The notes beneath the pieces are model-generated. The model made no database searches, was not told where the DNA came from, and saw only the letters and a list, made by a program, of their open reading frames with translations. From positions 1-56,288 of the forward strand of contig WYAU01000082.1 of the NCBI GenBank assembly GCA_011525665.1: a DNA stretch of 56,288 nt, in the 5' to 3' direction. The stretch is from Candidatus Brocadia sp. GTDB lineage: Bacteria; Planctomycetota; Brocadiia; Brocadiales; Brocadiaceae. Of this stretch, positions 7,532 to 38,521 are shown one piece after another. The position numbers and the translations under genes are program-made. The first letter of the stretch is position 1; each line of letters starts with the position of its first letter.

Positions 7532-7584
7532 AAAAAAGCCTTACTGCAAAGATATTTACTCAAAACATCTTCGGCAGTAAGGCT
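7532..7584 (-). terminator. Intrinsic terminator of c-di-GMP riboswitch (locus 1)
   Basis: On the minus strand GCCTTACTGC (7583-7574) pairs with GCAGTAAGGC (7547-7538), followed by TTTTTT. The 5' arm CCTTA can alternatively pair with TAAGG at the start of the upstream aptamer. Termination and the ligand-bound aptamer are therefore mutually exclusive. Confidence 0.85.
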
Positions 7585-7685
7585 GTCTTTATTCCTGCAA
7601 AAATGGCTTTTTCAAACCACTTCCGTGTAGATTTAAAGATCCACTACTTTGCGCCCCCTGATCGCTCAGGGTTTACCCTTATCGT
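7581..7685 (-). promoter_or_regulatory. Cyclic di-GMP-I (GEMM) riboswitch, locus 1
   Basis: The minus strand reads GATAAGGGTAAACCCTGAG, then GATCAGG, then GGGCGCAAAG, and ends GACAGCC. These are the conserved blocks of the GEMM-I aptamer (GGGCAAACC, short P2 hairpin, GGACGCAAAG, ..GACAGCC). P1 is TAAGG/CCTTA. Because CCTTA is also the terminator's 5' arm, ligand binding should prevent termination (ON switch). Two positions differ from consensus: GGGTAAACC for GGGCAAACC, and GGGCGCAAAG for GGACGCAAAG. Affinity may therefore be lower than that of the second copy at 36 kb. It controls the lipoprotein-phosphoesterase operon downstream. Confidence 0.85.
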
Positions 7686-7713
7686 AATGTTTTCCAAAAG
7701 TAAAATTAGCTTT

Positions 7714-29718: not shown

Positions 29719-30492
29719 TTATATTAACAAAGAATTATATATTTGTGTAATAAAATTTGGGAAGAACACCGATAAGGTGTTTGTGGCAGACCGTGTTTGT
29801 TTGCGAAGGCGGTTCAGATACGGGATGCGGTGTGGTTTCTTCAGGAGATAGCTCATGGTTCCCGGTATATTGACATCCCCTCCTGCGGTTACCATATCTT
29901 CGTAAATTTCCAGATCTTCATCTGCGCCATCAGAAATTGCGCGCACAACGACAAAGGGAATTCCCATGGCAGTTGCCCGTTCTCCTATCGCAAACGATTC
30001 CATATCCACAGCAATTGCTGAAGTTTGGGACCCGATGCATTTTTTGATCGATGATTTCCGGACTATCTTATCGACAGAGAGGATATCTCCGCAATGCGAC
30101 CTGAGGTTATCCGCGCTGCTTAAAGCAACAGCAAGCTCCGCAAATGATGTATCGCAGGAAAGGGTTGCATCGACCGTTATTGCTTCTCCCCACGTTTCCT
30201 GTGAGGAATGCAGGACATGTTTTCCTATGACTAAATCACCGACTCCGACCCCCGGGTTTACGCTGCCCGCAAAACCGGAAGAAACCATTAACTGTATCCT
30301 GAAGCATTTTGACAAATGGTGAATTACATCCGATACATTTTTCCCTATACCTGACTGAACAAGGGTTATCGGAAAACCGTGAAATTCTGCCTGGTAGAAA
30401 ACAGCATGGGCATATCGAATCTTTTTAACAATATTTACCTGTGATTTCAGACAAGCCAGTTCCTGGCTTACTGCAAAGAATACCGATATCAT
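29719..30492 (-). CDS. hpnG: Hopanoid-associated nucleoside phosphorylase
   Basis: This 257-residue member of the purine nucleoside phosphorylase/MTA-SAH nucleosidase superfamily has SSGFAGSVNPGVGVGDLVIG (base-site loop), VDMESFAIG (substrate-ribose Glu) and AISDGADED (catalytic Asp region). The HpnG assignment rests on the divergent hpnH neighbour and on the family: HpnG removes adenine from adenosylhopane in extended hopanoid synthesis. Start ATG 30492 (MISVFFAVSQE) has GGGAAG upstream and fits the family; the frame extends to 30552. A general MTA/SAH nucleosidase is the alternative. Confidence 0.82.
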   Translation of the reverse strand: MISVFFAVSQELACLKSQVNIVKKIRYAHAVFYQAEFHGFPITLVQSGIGKNVSDVIHHLSKCFRIQLMVSSGFAGSVNPGVGVGDLVIGKHVLHSSQETWGEAITVDATLSCDTSFAELAVALSSADNLRSHCGDILSVDKIVRKSSIKKCIGSQTSAIAVDMESFAIGERATAMGIPFVVVRAISDGADEDLEIYEDMVTAGGDVNIPGTMSYLLKKPHRIPYLNRLRKQTRSATNTLSVFFPNFITQIYNSLLI

Positions 30493-30628
30493 AAATCTTC
30501 CCGCTAAAGTAAGAAACGTATAAATGGAATCAAATTTAATTGAAATTTTCAATACAATTTATGAAAAAGTACGTGTCTGGTTAATTACCAGACCATGAAA
30601 TGTGACAGGAAACAGCTTCAAATAATGC

Positions 30629-30655
30629 TTGACAGTATTGTATATTTGATATAGC
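30629..30655 (+). promoter_or_regulatory. Possible promoter of hpnH
   Basis: TTGACA (30629-30634) is followed after 15 bp by TATAGC (30650-30655), about 65 bp before the hpnH start in the divergent hpnG/hpnH region. The spacer is short and the -10 imperfect. Confidence 0.35.
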
Positions 30656-30719
30656 ATTCATTATTTGTGGTTTACACGAAACATTTCTGCCTTTGTTATA
30701 AATTGGAGTTCTCTTTATC

Positions 30720-31715
30720 ATGAGGGTATCATTATCATTAAGTTCTTCTCTGACAAAATATCTGATCAAGAACAAGTTCTTATCCAGGGAACGGTTTCCT
30801 TTGGTATTGATGCTGGAGGTTACACATCTCTGCAATCTTGCCTGCGAGGGTTGCGGTCGCATACACGAGTACCGGGAAACGATGCGGGAGATGTTAAGTC
30901 CCGAAGAGTGTGTTGAGGCGGTGGAGGAATGTCCGACGCCCGTTGTCTCTGTTACGGGTGGTGAACCCCTGATGCACCCCGAGATCGATAAGATTATCAG
31001 TGGTATCCTGGACAAAAAGAGACATATCTATTTATGTACCAATGGAATTTTGTTGGCAGACGCAATAAAAAAATTCAAACCGAGTAAATATTTTAACATC
31101 AACGTCCACATTGACGGCCTTGCTGAAACGCATGACGCAATCGCAGGAAAGGGTGTTTTTGAACGTGCTACCCGGGCTATTCGGGAGGCAAAACGGGCTG
31201 GATTTAATGTCTGCACAAATACCACTATATTTAAGAATACGGGTGAGGAGGAGATCGAGGAATTATTTTCATTTCTTGAGGGATTGGGTGTTGACGGCAT
31301 GCTGGTTTCTCCTGGTTTTAGTTTTGAACACAACGAGAATGAGGTATTCCTATGCCGGAATGAAATACAGGAACGATTTGGATTTATTTATGGGATTTCG
31401 AAGAAATATAAAATCCTGAACTCCCCCCTCTATTTAAAGTTTTTAAAGGGAGAAAGGTATCTCAAGTGCACGCCGTGGGGAAATCCAACGCGGAACTATC
31501 TGGGCTGGAAAAGCCCTTGCTACCTTATCACAGACACCCATTATAAAACATTTGCCGAATATATGGAGAATACGGACTGGGAGAGGTATCAGGAAGGCAA
31601 TGATCCGCGTTGTAAAAATTGCATGATGCACTGCGGTTTTGAGCCCACTGTGGTGTTAGAAGGAGGGAAGCGGTTGTCCGATATTATAGAAATGGCGAAA
31701 TGGAGTTTCAGTTAG
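30720..31715 (+). CDS. hpnH: Adenosylhopane synthase (radical SAM)
   Basis: This 331-residue radical SAM protein has cluster motif CNLACEGC (CxxxCxxC) around residues 38-45 and SAM-binding VTGGEPLMHPEI. The C-terminal HpnH signature comprises CTPWGNPTRNYLGWKSPCY and DPRCKNCMMHCGFEPT. HpnH adds a 5'-deoxyadenosyl group to diploptene to give adenosylhopane, the first step towards C35 hopanoids. GGAG lies 10 bases upstream of ATG 30720. It diverges from hpnG and is 4.8 kb from the squalene-hopene cyclase gene, so the pathway is clustered but interrupted by the 1342-residue gene. Confidence 0.93.
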   Translation: MRVSLSLSSSLTKYLIKNKFLSRERFPLVLMLEVTHLCNLACEGCGRIHEYRETMREMLSPEECVEAVEECPTPVVSVTGGEPLMHPEIDKIISGILDKKRHIYLCTNGILLADAIKKFKPSKYFNINVHIDGLAETHDAIAGKGVFERATRAIREAKRAGFNVCTNTTIFKNTGEEEIEELFSFLEGLGVDGMLVSPGFSFEHNENEVFLCRNEIQERFGFIYGISKKYKILNSPLYLKFLKGERYLKCTPWGNPTRNYLGWKSPCYLITDTHYKTFAEYMENTDWERYQEGNDPRCKNCMMHCGFEPTVVLEGGKRLSDIIEMAKWSFS

Positions 31716-31798
31716 AGAAAAAAACCACCTTAGCAACTTACGTGGTTGCGGAGGAAAGTATCGCATCTATCATAGCATCATTAATCAGATACGAATAT

Positions 31799-31861
31799 GT
31801 CATTCCCGCAAAAGCAGGAATCCAGAAAAACACTGGATTCCGGGTCAAGCCCGGAATGACA
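31799..31861. repeat. Dispersed palindromic repeat (CATTCCCGC type)
   Basis: TCATTCCCGCAAAAGCAGG at the left and CCGGGTCAAGCCCGGAATGA at the right frame an inner CCAG..CTGG pair. This is the layout of the widespread short palindromic repeats with GTCATTCCCG ends. It lies between the convergent hpnH gene and the 1342-residue gene, where such elements often sit. Confidence 0.7.
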
Positions 31862-31892
31862 GAAATTTGTAAATTTATGTTGCTATGTATAA

Positions 31893-34800
31893 TTACTGAA
31901 ATGCATGTTGAAGCAGATTAATTATTCCCATGCCTCCGAGTGGTGTAAGTGATGCAAAAAGTATAGGATTATTGCTTAATGTAGCAAAGGCGCCATTTCT
32001 TGTATTCTGAATATCTTCTATAATAAATCTTGTAAACCCTAACTCTCGCTCTAATTTCTCATTGTTTGACTCACTGCTCGTTTGTTTTTTATCCTTCATC
32101 AATTTTAGAAGCTTATCTTTTAATTGGTCAATGACTTTCTGCCGTCCTCCTTTTGCCTCACGGAACAGCATGATTGCACTATACAGTACAATCAGTATGG
32201 ACAGCACTACAACAACTGCCAGAGGCAATGTCCATTTCCAATTATCAATAAAATTATAGCGCGCAATACAGAAGATAAGTAACAAAATGAACGGGTACTT
32301 GATCATCTTTGCATTTACCTCCGTCCTTTTTGCAATAACTTTGATAATAACATACCAATAGTCGTCGTTCTGTTCGTTTCCTTTCAATTGAAATAATTCC
32401 TTTATAAACTTACGGCATTTGAACGTATCAAAAACAACATGCCAGAAGAGAAAGAACGTTAAAAAAAGGCTGGAAATCAGAATAACACGGTCTAGGCTAA
32501 AACAGAGAGAACCGCGACCGGGTATTAAAGGGTTTCCATACTTATATATAAATGCAAATCCAAGAAGTAAGTGAACACATGTAATGATAGCAACTGTTCT
32601 ATATCTCTTCCAGGTTTCGTTACTTTTTTCAAATGTATGCCACTTTTCTTTAAGATCAGCAAAAAAGCCTTCCCCTTTTTGCTCTGATAATATATGCGCT
32701 ATTTCCTCCTTATTACGCTTAACATGTTGTAGAGAGAGGGCAAAAAAGCATGTTCCAAGAAATCCGTTCAAAAGCCGGATCAATTCGGTTGGCCAAATAC
32801 TAATACCATCAAGAAATGTTATTGGTTCACCATCCGCACTGAGGGATGATTTTATTGCAAGTGCAACAAATAGTACATAAAACGCTCCCCCTATAATCCC
32901 AAGACATTTCCAGTAACACATGAACTTCAAATATGTTGGGAAATCACTAAAATCATTTTGATCAGGCAAAAATTGCCAGAAGAACCAACCAAGTATTATT
33001 ATAGGGGGAACAAACAGACATATGAAAAATTTTATCTGCACATACGTCCGATCAGGATGAAGATATAACTCCTCCTTTCGTAATTCTGTTTCTGGTGTAT
33101 GGTCTGAACTTAAATCATATTCACCCCGATACCCTATTTCAAAGATGCGAGGAGATATCTTATTTAAATTAATATCATCTTCCTTTAAACTACCCAATGC
33201 CTGCAAAGCGGCAACAAAGGCAGAGGTTTGATAGACGGATCTGAAAGGTGGGATGTCTTTTTGCAAGTTATGACGTAACTGCAGTCCATAACTCGATGCG
33301 ACGATCAGGTTCCTTGTAAAAGGTAATTCGGTATGATGCCAGAGACGGGCGTCAAGGTCTGTGGTAAAAAAAATAGTATTGCGAAATTCTTTACGAAGCG
33401 CGCGTAATATCAACAATTTATCATAAACATCGCTGCCCATTATACCAATCGCCCGAATTTTATCACGATCGTTTACGATATTTTTTACTTTTTCTGTAAG
33501 ACGTCGCATATAGTCAAATTGGTCTTGTCCCTGGGGTTGTTCGAATTTAGGATTGAAATAATCAAAATCGGTTGGTGAACTCTTCTTCTTGTCGCTATTG
33601 GAATTACCTCCGGTAGATATTTCTGAATCCCTGTTAGGCAATTTACCATCGATACCACGCATATAGGTAATGGTATGAATACGTTCAGGCCAGGTATTGC
33701 CAATCCTTTGCGGGGTTTCTTCTGAATAAGCCTTCTCTAAAAGAAGGCGATTCAATCTTTTTGTTTCCCATTGAGTATCCTCACTTAAACGGGAAAAACC
33801 AATACTGCGGTCTTCTTGAGTCTCTTTTATAATGTTAGACAATCGGTCTTTACCCCTCACTTTACCCAAAAAGTCATACAATCCAGGATTTGTTAAAAAT
33901 TCGTTTAGCCAATCGATTGGCTTGCGGGAAGCATTCAGAGGCAATAAAGGAATAAGGTCTGGAGCCTTACCAGGGTAAATGTGTGCCAAGACAAGACGGT
34001 TAAGCAATTTTATGGCATATTTTTCATCGTTGTTCAACTTGGAAAAACTTTTCTTTCTGTACCTAACTGTTTTATTATTCAATTCCTTTATAATTTTGCC
34101 AGAAGTTATCTCTCGTCGTTTTTCTGAAGGTATTTTATCATAAAAATCAGGAACTTTTAAAAGTTCATTGAGCCACTCAATGGTATGACTGGATACGTTC
34201 TTGAAAGGAGGCACTCCATAATCAGCACGCTCAATCTCAATACAGAGTGTTACGATATCATGTGGTTGTTTAAATTCGTCCTTGCGAAAGTCTATAGAAT
34301 TTAATATGTCCTCAATAATCTTCTTATAAAGCCTCTCTGGGTTCAATGGTTCCTTAAACTCACCCTTAAAGAAATCTGAATAACCCTCCTCCCGTTCACG
34401 ATATTTTTGTACAGACATAGCAAAAGAGGTCGGTAAGGCACGTCCGTAAAAGGTATCCCATTCACTAATAAGCAGTATATGATCGGAGCTATTGCTTGAC
34501 AAATTTATTTTTCGACGTGTCAACTCATCAACCAATTCATCGGTCAATTGTGAATCATTGTGAATGGTAGCTGTTAAGGAAATATCTGATTCTGTTGGGA
34601 ATAGTAATGTATAAAAAGCATCCTTTTCAAGATATTCTTCTAATTCTTTCTTAATTTGTATGAGATTTGAAATACTTTTTTGAGGTTTTTCTCTTTTAGA
34701 CATACGCTGCCCAATTTGATATATTAAAAAAAAAGGGTCTGCATTAGCCCATGGAGAATATAATATAAACTTTTTCTCTGAAGAATTCTTTAATATCTTT

Positions 34801-35921
34801 TTTATCTCTTCTATTTTGTCGGAATGCTTCTTTTTAGCTGATTCTAATTCTGATTCTAATTTTTTTATTTCAGATTCAAACTCTCTTTGCTCATTTTTTA
34901 TTTTTGATTTTACATCTTCAAGAAGTTTTTTTCTTTTATTTTTACATAAGCTATCCTTTCTATTATCTAAATCTTTAAATTTCTTACTTAAAGATATCCA
35001 TATTCCACGCACTTCATTTTTTTCTTTACGTTCTTTACGTTCAAGTTGTTTTTTTTGTAAATTAACTTTTTTCTCTTTGTTAAACAAAGCATTTTCAGAT
35101 TCAGATAATTCATATAATTTCTGAATATTTTCAGCTATTTCTTTGTTTTTTTCATCAAGTGCCTGCTTACAAATCTCTTCAAGGCATAAAGAGTCTTTAG
35201 GGCCAAGAATCTTACAATCAACTCTATCGGAACCCTGCTTTCCATCTGCATCTTTTACCTCTATTACAAATTCCTTAACTACCTCCAGCACTTGCTTCGT
35301 TATCAATTCCATCTGACCTAATCGGTCATTTGAAAAATATTCGTCCCCCAGCCAAAGGACAAGAACTGCCTCGTAAGTATTTGTGGCTTCTGCGTCCGAC
35401 ATCTTCAGGGTATCCTGAAGATACCACTCGTATGGTATAAGGCGTTCTTGTCGGTTGATCTGTGCTTTGAACACCCCAATATGTGTGGCATTTTTGGGTT
35501 GATAACCGGCAGCATGAAGCGCAGAAAGCACGGCATATCGGGTTCTCAGGCGCTCTTCCGCATCTTCTGTATAATGGCCAGCACTTATCATAACAGGCAT
35601 GATCAACACATCCTTAATGTCTTCCTGAGATTTAAATATCCCGGATTTCTGACAACCGTCCATTATGTTTGGAATGGAAAATTTTGGATGAATTGCCTCA
35701 GTATCTTTTCTATAACCTTCAACCGCTTGAAATGGGTCCTGCCACAAACGGGCAAGCACTTTTTCTTCTTCTATCTGCTGTTCTATTTCTTTTTGGCTCT
35801 TGGACGGCCGGAGTGATTCTAAAGGCGAATAGAAAGTAAAAACACCGCCTGCAATAATGGCAGCAATAAGCAGGGTAATAGAAAATGGAAACGATGATTG
35901 CTTGTCTTGGTGATCGGTCAT
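31893..35921 (-). CDS. 1342-residue polytopic membrane protein of unknown function, c-di-GMP controlled
   Basis: Layout by residue: TM helix 11-31; a mixed domain with VLIMPVMISAGHYTEDAEERL (about 105-215); highly charged coiled coil 250-380; a second globular region 385-560. An internal duplication follows (about 581-650 and 669-737, both with WLNExLxxPxxYD ... FSxLxxD ... LNRLxL). A PBP-like segment (about 820-915) includes GIMGSDVYDKLLILRAL, FFTTDLDARLWHH and RNLIVASSYGLQL. Seven C-terminal helices occupy 960-1255. No Walker, kinase or nuclease motif was seen. The DARL/NLIVASS block recalls ligand-binding folds of amino-acid ABC receptors, but this is weak. The gene stands alone behind a sigma-54 promoter and c-di-GMP riboswitch like those at 7.5-7.9 kb, which links it functionally to the phosphoesterase operon. 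Confidence 0.85.
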   Translation of the reverse strand: MTDHQDKQSSFPFSITLLIAAIIAGGVFTFYSPLESLRPSKSQKEIEQQIEEEKVLARLWQDPFQAVEGYRKDTEAIHPKFSIPNIMDGCQKSGIFKSQEDIKDVLIMPVMISAGHYTEDAEERLRTRYAVLSALHAAGYQPKNATHIGVFKAQINRQERLIPYEWYLQDTLKMSDAEATNTYEAVLVLWLGDEYFSNDRLGQMELITKQVLEVVKEFVIEVKDADGKQGSDRVDCKILGPKDSLCLEEICKQALDEKNKEIAENIQKLYELSESENALFNKEKKVNLQKKQLERKERKEKNEVRGIWISLSKKFKDLDNRKDSLCKNKRKKLLEDVKSKIKNEQREFESEIKKLESELESAKKKHSDKIEEIKKILKNSSEKKFILYSPWANADPFFLIYQIGQRMSKREKPQKSISNLIQIKKELEEYLEKDAFYTLLFPTESDISLTATIHNDSQLTDELVDELTRRKINLSSNSSDHILLISEWDTFYGRALPTSFAMSVQKYREREEGYSDFFKGEFKEPLNPERLYKKIIEDILNSIDFRKDEFKQPHDIVTLCIEIERADYGVPPFKNVSSHTIEWLNELLKVPDFYDKIPSEKRREITSGKIIKELNNKTVRYRKKSFSKLNNDEKYAIKLLNRLVLAHIYPGKAPDLIPLLPLNASRKPIDWLNEFLTNPGLYDFLGKVRGKDRLSNIIKETQEDRSIGFSRLSEDTQWETKRLNRLLLEKAYSEETPQRIGNTWPERIHTITYMRGIDGKLPNRDSEISTGGNSNSDKKKSSPTDFDYFNPKFEQPQGQDQFDYMRRLTEKVKNIVNDRDKIRAIGIMGSDVYDKLLILRALRKEFRNTIFFTTDLDARLWHHTELPFTRNLIVASSYGLQLRHNLQKDIPPFRSVYQTSAFVAALQALGSLKEDDINLNKISPRIFEIGYRGEYDLSSDHTPETELRKEELYLHPDRTYVQIKFFICLFVPPIIILGWFFWQFLPDQNDFSDFPTYLKFMCYWKCLGIIGGAFYVLFVALAIKSSLSADGEPITFLDGISIWPTELIRLLNGFLGTCFFALSLQHVKRNKEEIAHILSEQKGEGFFADLKEKWHTFEKSNETWKRYRTVAIITCVHLLLGFAFIYKYGNPLIPGRGSLCFSLDRVILISSLFLTFFLFWHVVFDTFKCRKFIKELFQLKGNEQNDDYWYVIIKVIAKRTEVNAKMIKYPFILLLIFCIARYNFIDNWKWTLPLAVVVVLSILIVLYSAIMLFREAKGGRQKVIDQLKDKLLKLMKDKKQTSSESNNEKLERELGFTRFIIEDIQNTRNGAFATLSNNPILFASLTPLGGMGIINLLQHAFQ

Positions 35922-35943
35922 TTTATGGTATTAACTTTAAATA

Positions 35944-35993
35944 AAAAAACCTTACTGCAAAGATATTCATGCTAAGCATCATTGGCAGTAAGG
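35944..35993 (-). terminator. Intrinsic terminator of c-di-GMP riboswitch (locus 2)
   Basis: On the minus strand CCTTACTGC (35993-35985) pairs with GCAGTAAGG (35958-35950), followed by TTTTTTTAT. The T-run ends about 20 bp before the start codon at 35921. The 5' arm overlaps the P1 strand of the aptamer, exactly as in locus 1. Confidence 0.87.
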
Positions 35994-36092
35994 CTGTCTT
36001 TTTTAAACCGTTGAAGCAGTTTAAACCATTTCAACTGTTAGAAAGACCCTTTCCTTTGCGTCCCCCGATCACTCAGGGTTTGCCCTTATCGT
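35992..36092 (-). promoter_or_regulatory. Cyclic di-GMP-I (GEMM) riboswitch, locus 2
   Basis: The minus strand contains GATAAGGGCAAACCCTGAGT, GATCGGG and GGACGCAAAG, a variable P3 arm and closing GACAGCC, matching the GEMM-I consensus blocks exactly. P1 (TAAGG/CCTTA) competes with the terminator at 35950-35993, so ligand binding should allow read-through. The GGGCAAACC form with G at the discriminating position suggests c-di-GMP rather than cGAMP, though only binding tests can settle this. It controls the 1342-residue protein. Confidence 0.9.
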
Positions 36093-36118
36093 GATTTTTA
36101 ATTTACGAATGATTAGAG

Positions 36119-36134
36119 GGCAAGGTAAATACCA
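36119..36134 (-). promoter_or_regulatory. Sigma-54 (-24/-12) promoter, locus 2
   Basis: The minus strand reads TGGTATTTACCTTGCC, with GG and GC at the exact RpoN spacing. It lies about 27 bp upstream of the aptamer. The same element, spacing and order occur at 7714-7729. Confidence 0.7.
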
Positions 36135-36258
36135 AAAAAGGGGGGAAAGAAATAATTTTAAAATATTATTTCCTTATGTTGCTGATATTAAGTATCTTAT
36201 AGATACAGCAGAAGGAGGTGAACCGTAGTGTGATTTATTCAACCGAAAATGGATAAAA

Positions 36259-36307
36259 TGTGCCATGACACACTTGTGTGACGTCACAACTGTGTGTCAT
36301 GACACAC
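36259..36307. promoter_or_regulatory. Triple palindromic operator cluster, locus 2
   Basis: Three dyads occur in 49 bp: TGTGCCATGACACAC (36259-36273), TGTGACGTCACA (36277-36288, perfect) and GTGTGTCATGACACAC (36292-36307, perfect). The outer two share the GTGTG-n-CATG-n-CACAC pattern of locus 1. The cluster starts about 125 bp upstream of the sigma-54 promoter, a normal place for enhancer-binding protein sites. The cognate regulator is not in the window. The rest of 35922-36469 contains no other recognised element. Confidence 0.72.
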
Positions 36308-36469
36308 TCGGTAGCGCTTGATCATGAGATAGGAACATTCTATAAGCACATATGACAGCGAAAAAACGACAAATACCACAAATCTCTCTTTTTACTAAAA
36401 TAAGATTTGGAATATTCATCGAAGTCTTTGCTACACGTTGTTGCGTCGTGTATTTCTGGCGGTAAAGTA

Positions 36470-38521
36470 TTATATGTTTTGAAGTGAATTCCTATATCTT
36501 CCCAATGCCATCAAGGGAAAATAGTTGCAATACATATGGTATCTTAAATAAAAGACCTTCGGAAAGCCTGTTGCGGTAAATTCAATTTCGTCCCAGCTCC
36601 CGTCTTCTTTTTGCCTCGTGAGGAGAAATTTTATACCCCTTTCTACTGTATCCGATTTTATTTCACCTGCAGTCATGAGAGCTAGCAATGCCCATGCTGT
36701 TTGTGAAGGCGTACTTTTGCCAATTGCCTTAAGGAAGGGGTCATCGTACGATTTTATCGTTTCACCCCATCCCCCATCGGAATTTTGAACACCCTTCAGC
36801 CACTCAACGGCCTTTCGGATGTATGGCTTGTTCATATCCTCACCCACCGCCGCAAGTCCGGAAAACACAGACCACGTCCCGTAAATATAGTTTGCGCCCC
36901 AACGCCCAAACCATGTTCCGTCTTTTTCCTGCTCTTTTTGGAGAAATTCTATAGCCCTTTGAATATGGCGCGTGGTCTTACCGAACCCTATACGCCCTAA
37001 AAAATCAAGACATCGACCGGTAACATCGCTGGTGCTTGGATCCAACAACGCATTAAAATCCGCAAAGGGTATATGATTGAGAATGGACTTATTGTTGTTG
37101 CGGTCAAATGCCCCCCATCCGCCGTCATCACATTGCATGGCCAGGATCCATTGCAATCCCCGTAAAAATGCCTCCTCCTTACGGGCGGTTTCTGGCAAGA
37201 GTACCCGTTGCAAGGCCATCAACACCGCCGCGCTGTCGTCCGTGTCAGGATAAAATTCATTTGCATATTGGAAATACCAGCCGCTCGGTTCATTTACCTT
37301 ACATTTTAACGCCCAATCTCCAAAACTCCTGACCTCCTTACTGATGAGCCACCGACCAGCCTTTTGCACTGCCGGATCGATACCAAGCACCCCCGACTCA
37401 TGAAGCGCAATAATCGTCCATGCCGTATCCCAGACAGGCGACACGCAAGGCTGTAAATAAAGCTTATCTTTTTCATATACAATGAGGTCTTCAACTTCTT
37501 TGAGCTGGCTTACCAACGCAGGGTGGTCGTCCGGATAGCCAAGACATTTCATGGCAAAAATCGAATTAATAATTGCAGGCCAAATAGCCCCCAAGCCGCC
37601 GGATTTATCCAGATGGTCGAGCATCCATTTTTCCGCCTTTCGGAGGGCTATTCTTCTGATAAACTTAACGGGATGTTGTTCGTACCTTCTGAAAATACTG
37701 TCCGCATCAATAAAGAAATTATGCCAGCTCAGGCCCGACTGATCCCGCTTAATGCGATAAACTACCTTTTCTCGTGGCACAACGTAGAGTTCTTTCAGCA
37801 AGTCATCGCCTACGGAAATGTGAGGCTTTTTGGCAATAGCAATTGAGAGGGGCACAACGATACATCGCGACCAATACGACATTTCATAGATACTAAAATA
37901 AAAACCGGGCGGAAACAGGATCATTTCAGCCGGAACGGCGGGTACAGCCTGCCAATCGACCTGCCCGAACATGGCAAGGTAAATCTTCGTAAAGCAGTTT
38001 GACTTCATAACGCCCCCCATACCGAGGATGCATTTTTTTGCCTTCTGCATAAAAGGTTCGTTTGCAGAATACCCCGCCAATTTTAACGCGAAATAGGCCT
38101 TTACTGAGGCGCTGATTTCACTGGATCCTCCATAGTAGATATTCCAACCTCCGTCAGGAAGTTGATAATCACGGAGCAGACTGGCTGCCATTCTCTGTTT
38201 GTTCTGATCTACCTTTCCGAGAAAATGCATCAGCATGATATAGTCTGATGTTATCGTCGTATCTGCCTCTAAAATTCCCACCCAATGCCCGTCCGATTTA
38301 TTTTGTTGACGGAAAAGATATTGTTGTGCTCTGCAAATGGCAACATCCAGGGGGGTATTTGCCGGTAACTCCGGATGGAGGCCCTCCTTCCCAGGTGCGC
38401 TTTCCAATCTTAATCCATGTTGAGGCAGTTCCGGAATGGCGTGCTTGCCGTTTCCGTTGCCGTTGAATTTAAAGATGTTTGTTTCCAATCGTTGAAAAAT
38501 GCCAAGGAAGAAATTTCTCAT
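36470..38521 (-). CDS. shc: Squalene-hopene cyclase
   Basis: This 683-residue triterpene cyclase carries the protonating DxDD motif as PDTDDS (D426, D428, D429) and several QW repeats (QLPDGGWNIYYGG, QCDDGGWGAFD, QEKDGTWFGRWG, QNSDGGWGE, QKEDGSWDE). It folds squalene into hopene/hopanol at the membrane, the first step of hopanoid synthesis, feeding HpnH and HpnG encoded 5-8 kb away. The first 50 residues are a poorly conserved, Asn/Gly-rich extension. AGGAG lies upstream of ATG 38521, and a Fur-like box lies about 65 bp upstream. Confidence 0.96.
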   Translation of the reverse strand: MRNFFLGIFQRLETNIFKFNGNGNGKHAIPELPQHGLRLESAPGKEGLHPELPANTPLDVAICRAQQYLFRQQNKSDGHWVGILEADTTITSDYIMLMHFLGKVDQNKQRMAASLLRDYQLPDGGWNIYYGGSSEISASVKAYFALKLAGYSANEPFMQKAKKCILGMGGVMKSNCFTKIYLAMFGQVDWQAVPAVPAEMILFPPGFYFSIYEMSYWSRCIVVPLSIAIAKKPHISVGDDLLKELYVVPREKVVYRIKRDQSGLSWHNFFIDADSIFRRYEQHPVKFIRRIALRKAEKWMLDHLDKSGGLGAIWPAIINSIFAMKCLGYPDDHPALVSQLKEVEDLIVYEKDKLYLQPCVSPVWDTAWTIIALHESGVLGIDPAVQKAGRWLISKEVRSFGDWALKCKVNEPSGWYFQYANEFYPDTDDSAAVLMALQRVLLPETARKEEAFLRGLQWILAMQCDDGGWGAFDRNNNKSILNHIPFADFNALLDPSTSDVTGRCLDFLGRIGFGKTTRHIQRAIEFLQKEQEKDGTWFGRWGANYIYGTWSVFSGLAAVGEDMNKPYIRKAVEWLKGVQNSDGGWGETIKSYDDPFLKAIGKSTPSQTAWALLALMTAGEIKSDTVERGIKFLLTRQKEDGSWDEIEFTATGFPKVFYLRYHMYCNYFPLMALGRYRNSLQNI

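Follow-up and report, generated by a model that had tools for sequence, protein, structure and literature searches.

In the 56,288-nucleotide contig WYAU01000082.1 of Candidatus Brocadia sp. (assembly GCA_011525665.1), which was analysed over its whole length and is referred to here as the window, the open reading frame (ORF) at positions 31893 to 35921 of the reverse strand encodes a 1342-residue membrane protein. Its family is uncharacterised, extends across the Planctomycetota and has a length of about 1,100 residues without the insert described below. Residues 516 to 740 of this protein (33702 to 34376, reverse strand) are proposed to be two nested copies of a mobile, in-frame, fold-neutral, protein-coding guest element, a reading to which we assign a probability of about 0.78. 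An earlier note, made from the letters of the window alone, had reported this ORF correctly and had taken the two similar stretches to be an internal duplication. The latter interpretation was wrong because the repeated unit is an insert common to dozens of unrelated proteins and because relatives of the window protein are empty at this site.

Structure of the inserted block

The unit is about 109 residues in length (about 109 to 111 codons, or about 327 to 333 bp). With a unit model from which the window's own units had been left out, the window protein still gave two main matches, at 98.0 and 55.5 bits, far above chance; the WLNE-containing units of the earlier note were therefore real, while their supposed length of roughly 70 residues was not. 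The note's two copies belong to two different units, of which one lies inside the other, and a 24-residue head had been overlooked. All parts of the block lie on the reverse strand. The inner, complete unit occupies residues 544 to 655 (33957 to 34292; model positions 1 to 109), and the tail of the outer unit occupies residues 660 to 738 (33708 to 33944; model positions 26 to 109). The head of the outer, interrupted unit was assigned to residues 516 to 539 (34305 to 34376; model positions 1 to 23), where the score of 7.5 bits from the same model was equalled or exceeded by at most 2 of 1950 scored shuffles, and it begins exactly where the host sequence of the relatives ends. The simplest reading of this arrangement is that a later, complete unit landed inside the outer unit and cut it at about position 24.

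The whole block is absent at this site from four relatives. Those at loci L042, L043 and L044, which belong to the same genus, align on both sides of residues 516 to 740 and have host sequence only between, and the relative at L103 has no insert at the window-protein site (KKYRQNIGSITWPEHIH). The unit of L103 lies elsewhere, following EIGRKGPYDLTPG, a place at which the window protein is uninterrupted host sequence. Alignment of L103 with the window protein (P0001) thus shows two separate insertion points within one host family. That a native segment of the window protein was duplicated in tandem was given a negligible probability: the two similar stretches do adjoin in the protein, but the relatives lack both copies and the unit also occurs in unrelated proteins. 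In addition, the inner unit is not closest to its neighbour; in a tree of 40 units it was nearest by path to the copy in a Cas7 protein, and its top identity (46%) was to the copy in a 756-residue protein of another genome.

Distribution of the unit

Residues 540 to 663 of the window protein matched an ORF of the same genome that was identified as Cas7, and other matches were in a patatin-like protein, an NAD-dependent DNA ligase (LigA) and an SLBB polysaccharide-export protein. With an eight-unit profile, five matches were found in the window's own genome at E values of up to 10, all of them open frames without stops, and the unit was detected in 9 of 392 genomes of a phylum sample and in 13 of 62 genomes of the order. 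One of these 13, an archease (L107; model positions 14 to 59 only), was taken as chance and left out of the census below. A scan of genome contigs, in which 7 of 118 pattern matches were confirmed, added metagenome-assembled genomes (MAGs) of Nitrospiraceae, 'Deltaproteobacteria', Bacteroidales and WOR-1; the named contigs carrying the unit also include Candidatus Brocadia and Brocadiaceae, which makes an anammox bacterium of that genus the most likely source of the window. A 20-row profile was run against 395 genomes from each of two phyla: it matched 13 in that of the Nitrospiraceae MAG and, in that of the Bacteroidales MAG, the seed genome alone. The taxa with the unit are Brocadiales and Nitrospirota, together with one MAG each of Bacteroidota, WOR-1 and 'Deltaproteobacteria'. 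The unit was not found in phages, plasmids or viral contigs, none of the 95 viral pattern matches being confirmed.

The census comprised 44 units in 38 ORFs, or about 32 distinct sites after orthologues had been merged (four for patatin, two for the cytochrome and three for an uncharacterised family); it excludes L107, and L109, L110 and L111 were dropped as repeats of L093, L060 and L094, respectively. At least 20 host residues were present on both sides of the unit in 34 of the 38 ORFs. The exceptions were L100, which has an in-frame stop in the unit head and looks decayed, L104, where the unit is near the start, and L112 and L159, where it is near the end. The hosts identified with Pfam and PADLOC included Cas7, LigA, SLBB/polysaccharide export, patatin, a RAMP Cas protein, WD40, FHIPEP/TPR, HlyD, sigma-54, a tyrosine recombinase, a multihaem cytochrome c, AAA, TPR, a fused RNA polymerase, HEAT, MORN, a histidine kinase, PMT and PPDK. 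At L105:4237-9306 a circularly permuted unit (model positions 49 to 109 followed by 1 to 67) was found in one open frame, a hint that the ends of the unit, its N and C termini, may lie close together.

Occupied and empty host genes

The unit was shown to be common to unrelated proteins of several phyla and absent from orthologues. In LigA, it is present in genome G284, which has one LigA match, and absent from the congeners G403, G404, G405 and G406 and from five other genomes of the family. The proteins of the four congeners are 89 to 90% identical to that of G284 over residues 1 to 491 and 84 to 92% identical over residues 604 to 787, with one codon between. At the junction, the empty form reads LER and the occupied form reads LK-DF...TPK-NHL before the MGEKSS that both have in common, a net gain of 111 codons. 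The unit is 28% guanine plus cytosine within a gene of 42%. The ratio of nonsynonymous to synonymous substitution rates (dN/dS) was 0.10 to 0.15 for the occupied LigA against the four congeners and 0.09 to 0.13 among those congeners, and the occupied enzyme is still under purifying selection.

Residues 488 and 603 of the occupied LigA align to residues 483 and 487 of the solved enzyme (2owo), and host residues 312 and 418 of the occupied sigma-54 align to residues 314 and 319 of the solved protein. The PPDK of the WOR-1 MAG was matched to a solved PPDK up to residue 151 and resumed at residue 311 (chain residues 52 and 78). For the Cas7 host, no clear orthologue was found in 33 genomes of the family; the other hits lay on or around the unit, so that an empty site could not be read.

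Nature of the unit

The unit is conserved as a protein under purifying selection. For 190 pairs of non-orthologous units, drawn from 20 of 26 units, the mean proportions of nonsynonymous and synonymous differences (pN and pS) were 0.44 and 0.75, and identity at codon positions 1, 2 and 3 was 0.51, 0.63 and 0.37, respectively; the orthologous patatin units gave dN/dS values of about 0.2 to 0.54. The AlphaFold2 model of the unit (nine alignment rows) has a mean predicted local distance difference test score (pLDDT) of 90.8 and a predicted template modelling score of 0.85, and consists of six helices with no other secondary structure. At most 2 of 20 members matched any one Pfam or PHROG family (lowest E value 0.0037, from a single member), the best match of the unit profile to the PDB had an E value of 0.14, and fold searches with Foldseek and VIA-align gave weak matches only, the best with VIA-align having a Z score of 2.8 over 77 residues at 4.5 Å.

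These data also bear on whether the insert is excised from the transcript or from the protein, as an unrecognised intron-like or intein-like element that leaves the mature host unmodified. Such excision would fit the continued constraint on essential-type hosts and the tolerance of the unit for any compartment. Mini-inteins are about 110 to 140 residues long, and thus resemble the unit in size as well as in their in-frame position within unrelated, often essential proteins. Inteins have a nucleophile at the first residue of the insert and at the +1 position, a C-terminal His-Asn and a beta-rich HINT fold. In the unit, by contrast, a conserved C, S or T was found at neither junction, the end reads TPK followed by a variable residue rather than His-Asn, and the predicted fold is all-helical. 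At the RNA level, curated Rfam models applied across the whole window matched two cyclic di-GMP (c-di-GMP)-I aptamers only and no intron or ribozyme, the RNA structure of the unit was ordinary (folding z scores of 1.00 and −1.45), and neither a palindrome nor a stable hairpin was found in it. Since the conservation of the unit moreover sits at the protein level, excision was judged very improbable.

Evidence against mobility and the promiscuous-domain alternative

A number of observations weigh against the proposed mobile element. No transposase was found with the unit, no terminal inverted repeats joined its ends in the five regions examined, and no clear target-site duplication or target motif was seen at its flanks; mobility is therefore deduced from the distribution. 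In the flanks of 31 units the mean shared word was 4.55 nucleotides compared to 4.19 ± 0.16 after re-pairing, a difference that composition alone may explain. In LigA the junction does not look cleanly cut, with ER of the empty form standing opposite K...NHL of the occupied form. Copy number is low, with one to five matches per genome and a single match in each of the four named genomes from outside Planctomycetota, and many of the hosts are from MAGs, so that the cross-phylum placement could in part reflect misbinning. In the window protein, the head of the outer unit is weak when taken alone, the best shuffle having scored 8.0 bits, and the unit tree is poorly resolved, with 24 of 37 inner branches open. 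Finally, some insertions are vertically inherited, as an ordinary domain would be. This applies to those in patatin (L059, L095, L097 and L102) and in the cytochrome (L156 and L157), and also to L158, L160 and L168, which belong to one uncharacterised Nitrospirota family, share a single insertion point (two of the members being from one genome) and represent older, inherited insertions.

Vertical retention in patatin and the cytochrome, together with conservation at the protein level and the confidently predicted compact fold, would also be expected of an ordinary promiscuous functional domain (for example a ligand-binding or protein-binding one) that was spread by domain shuffling and retained for its usefulness to each host. 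We regard this explanation as unlikely, although it is the most probable of the alternatives considered. The hosts have no function or compartment in common, some insertions lie inside core folds (the helix-hairpin-helix region of LigA, the N-terminal region of PPDK, and Cas7), orthologues carry the unit sporadically, one copy is nested within another, and no stand-alone gene for the unit was present among the 38 ORFs. The mobile guest element remains the preferred interpretation.

Comparison with known elements

The mobile guest element has its nearest parallel in the Rickettsia palindromic elements (RPEs), which are described in a review as mobile repeats of about 150 bp that are palindromic, occur in frame in unrelated coding genes and are translated within the host protein (PMC10969869). 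The unit resembles these as described there in its in-frame insertion into unrelated protein-coding genes, and differs from that description in being about 330 bp, nonpalindromic, predicted with confidence to be a globular domain, low in copy number and distributed over several phyla. It was not classed as an RPE because of its size and because it is not palindromic; the best reading is that it works like RPEs yet is unrelated to them. PARCELs are also protein-coding repeats that have spread horizontally among distant microbes, as tandem arrays of amphipathic 25-residue units with dyad symmetry in ORFs without an assigned function (PMC2996958). The unit is instead a single 109-residue entity that interrupts conserved enzymes and regulators.

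Miniature inverted-repeat transposable elements are likewise small and without their own transposase, but no terminal inverted repeats and no clear target-site duplication were found for the unit. Lineage-specific insertion domains of RNA polymerase, such as BEAN and HABAS, are, like the unit, independent domains inside a conserved enzyme; the unit differs in that its hosts are many and unrelated and in that its presence varies from one congener to another. No prior description of the unit was found in the openly licensed literature, preprints being outside the scope of that search.

The host protein and its riboswitch

The host protein remains unrecognised, as the earlier note had said: Pfam, NCBIfam and PADLOC gave no family at a meaningful score, and no strong full-length match to a characterised family turned up. 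Relatives, counted as matches to any part of the protein including the units, were found in 20 of 392 Planctomycetota genomes and in 22 of 62 genomes of the order, and the family members in the alignment are mostly 950 to 1400 residues long. When the whole window protein was used to search a collection of genome contigs, no relative was obtained, and a plasmid collection gave one weak partial match, to the host N-terminal region, in Methylosinus. Short ORFs at L056 (G138) and L057 (G106) join residues 46 to 172 of the host family to residues 837 to 862 and are what is left of the host gene after much of its interior was lost. Downstream of the host-family gene in a Brocadia relative (L044:1568-11575), and on the same strand, lie ORFs named, from the starts of their sequences, as phosphoesterase-like and caspase-like.

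The N-terminal transmembrane helix claimed in the note was recovered by hydropathy at residues 13 to 31 (35829 to 35885, reverse strand). Of the seven C-terminal helices claimed, six were recovered as strong hydrophobic segments between residues 963 and 1252 (32166 to 33035, reverse strand), and a seventh, at about residues 1043 to 1065 and below the cutoff, is plausible. Of the charged coiled coil claimed at residues 250 to 380, the charge was supported and the coiled coil was not shown: in the stretch from 250 to 390 (34752 to 35174, reverse strand), a variable region of the host family, D, E, K and R make up 48% of residues compared to 29% overall, and heptad periodicity failed the shuffle test in all five segments. 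A block resembling periplasmic binding proteins at residues 820 to 915 was not supported, since a 12-member family profile had no relative in the PDB (best E value 0.47, to the Ski oncogene) and the single-sequence AlphaFold2 model of residues 746 to 962 was too poor for a fold search (pLDDT 43).

The c-di-GMP gate postulated for this gene was borne out. A c-di-GMP-I riboswitch aptamer (RF01051; 56.2 bits compared to a gathering threshold of 35) precedes the gene at 35981 to 36094 on the reverse strand, and is followed by a terminator-like hairpin (CCTTACTGC/GCAGTAAGG) with a T-run (35943 to 35994, reverse strand); the whole leader has a folding z score of −3.94. Because the 5' arm of the hairpin and the 3' end of the aptamer overlap, an ON switch is suggested. 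Binding of c-di-GMP would stabilise the aptamer and block the overlapping terminator, and the membrane protein would presumably be made when c-di-GMP is high. Eight loci were scanned for a riboswitch ahead of the homologous gene: the four from the genus Brocadia (L042, L043, L044 and L045) all have one, whereas none was detected at L046, L047, L048 or L103. The second aptamer of the window is at 7570 to 7687 (reverse strand; 51.1 bits), and the whole genome has 35 matches.

Hopanoid genes flank the host gene (29719 to 38521), namely, those for an HpnG-like phosphorylase (below its cutoff), HpnH and squalene-hopene cyclase. A small ORF at 31700 to 31921 encodes a peptide, PAKAGIQ...GFRVKPGMT, which we take to be the translation of an intergenic repeat common to many genomes. 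The corresponding DNA pattern was not enriched in the window, with 2 matches compared to 0.41 expected and 9 of 100 shuffles reaching 2.

Proposed mechanism and significance

It is proposed that the element enters unrelated genes in frame and in the sense orientation, and that the host protein then carries it as a compact helical domain. It would persist by folding independently and leaving the fold of the host usable, while copies that are out of frame or cause misfolding would be lost, and it would confer no specific function on the host. With modest confidence, we lean further towards a new family of selfish element that passes, as a folded guest domain, from one protein-coding gene to another in several bacterial phyla and can insert even into a copy of itself, selection for foldability allowing essential hosts such as DNA ligase and sigma-54 to survive. 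In the boldest form of this hypothesis, mobility would be linked to translation or mRNA, and the element would land only in frame.

Selfish elements that code for protein in frame with their hosts have been described chiefly in Rickettsia and in related reports, where they are short and palindromic. If the present interpretation is true, a larger element that folds on its own and interrupts conserved enzymes and regulators in several phyla would show that mobile DNA can propagate in the guise of an innocuous protein domain. Such an element would naturally supply protein evolution with inserted domains, making the origin of inserted domains directly testable, and annotated "internal duplications" and lineage-specific insertions may be genetic parasites.

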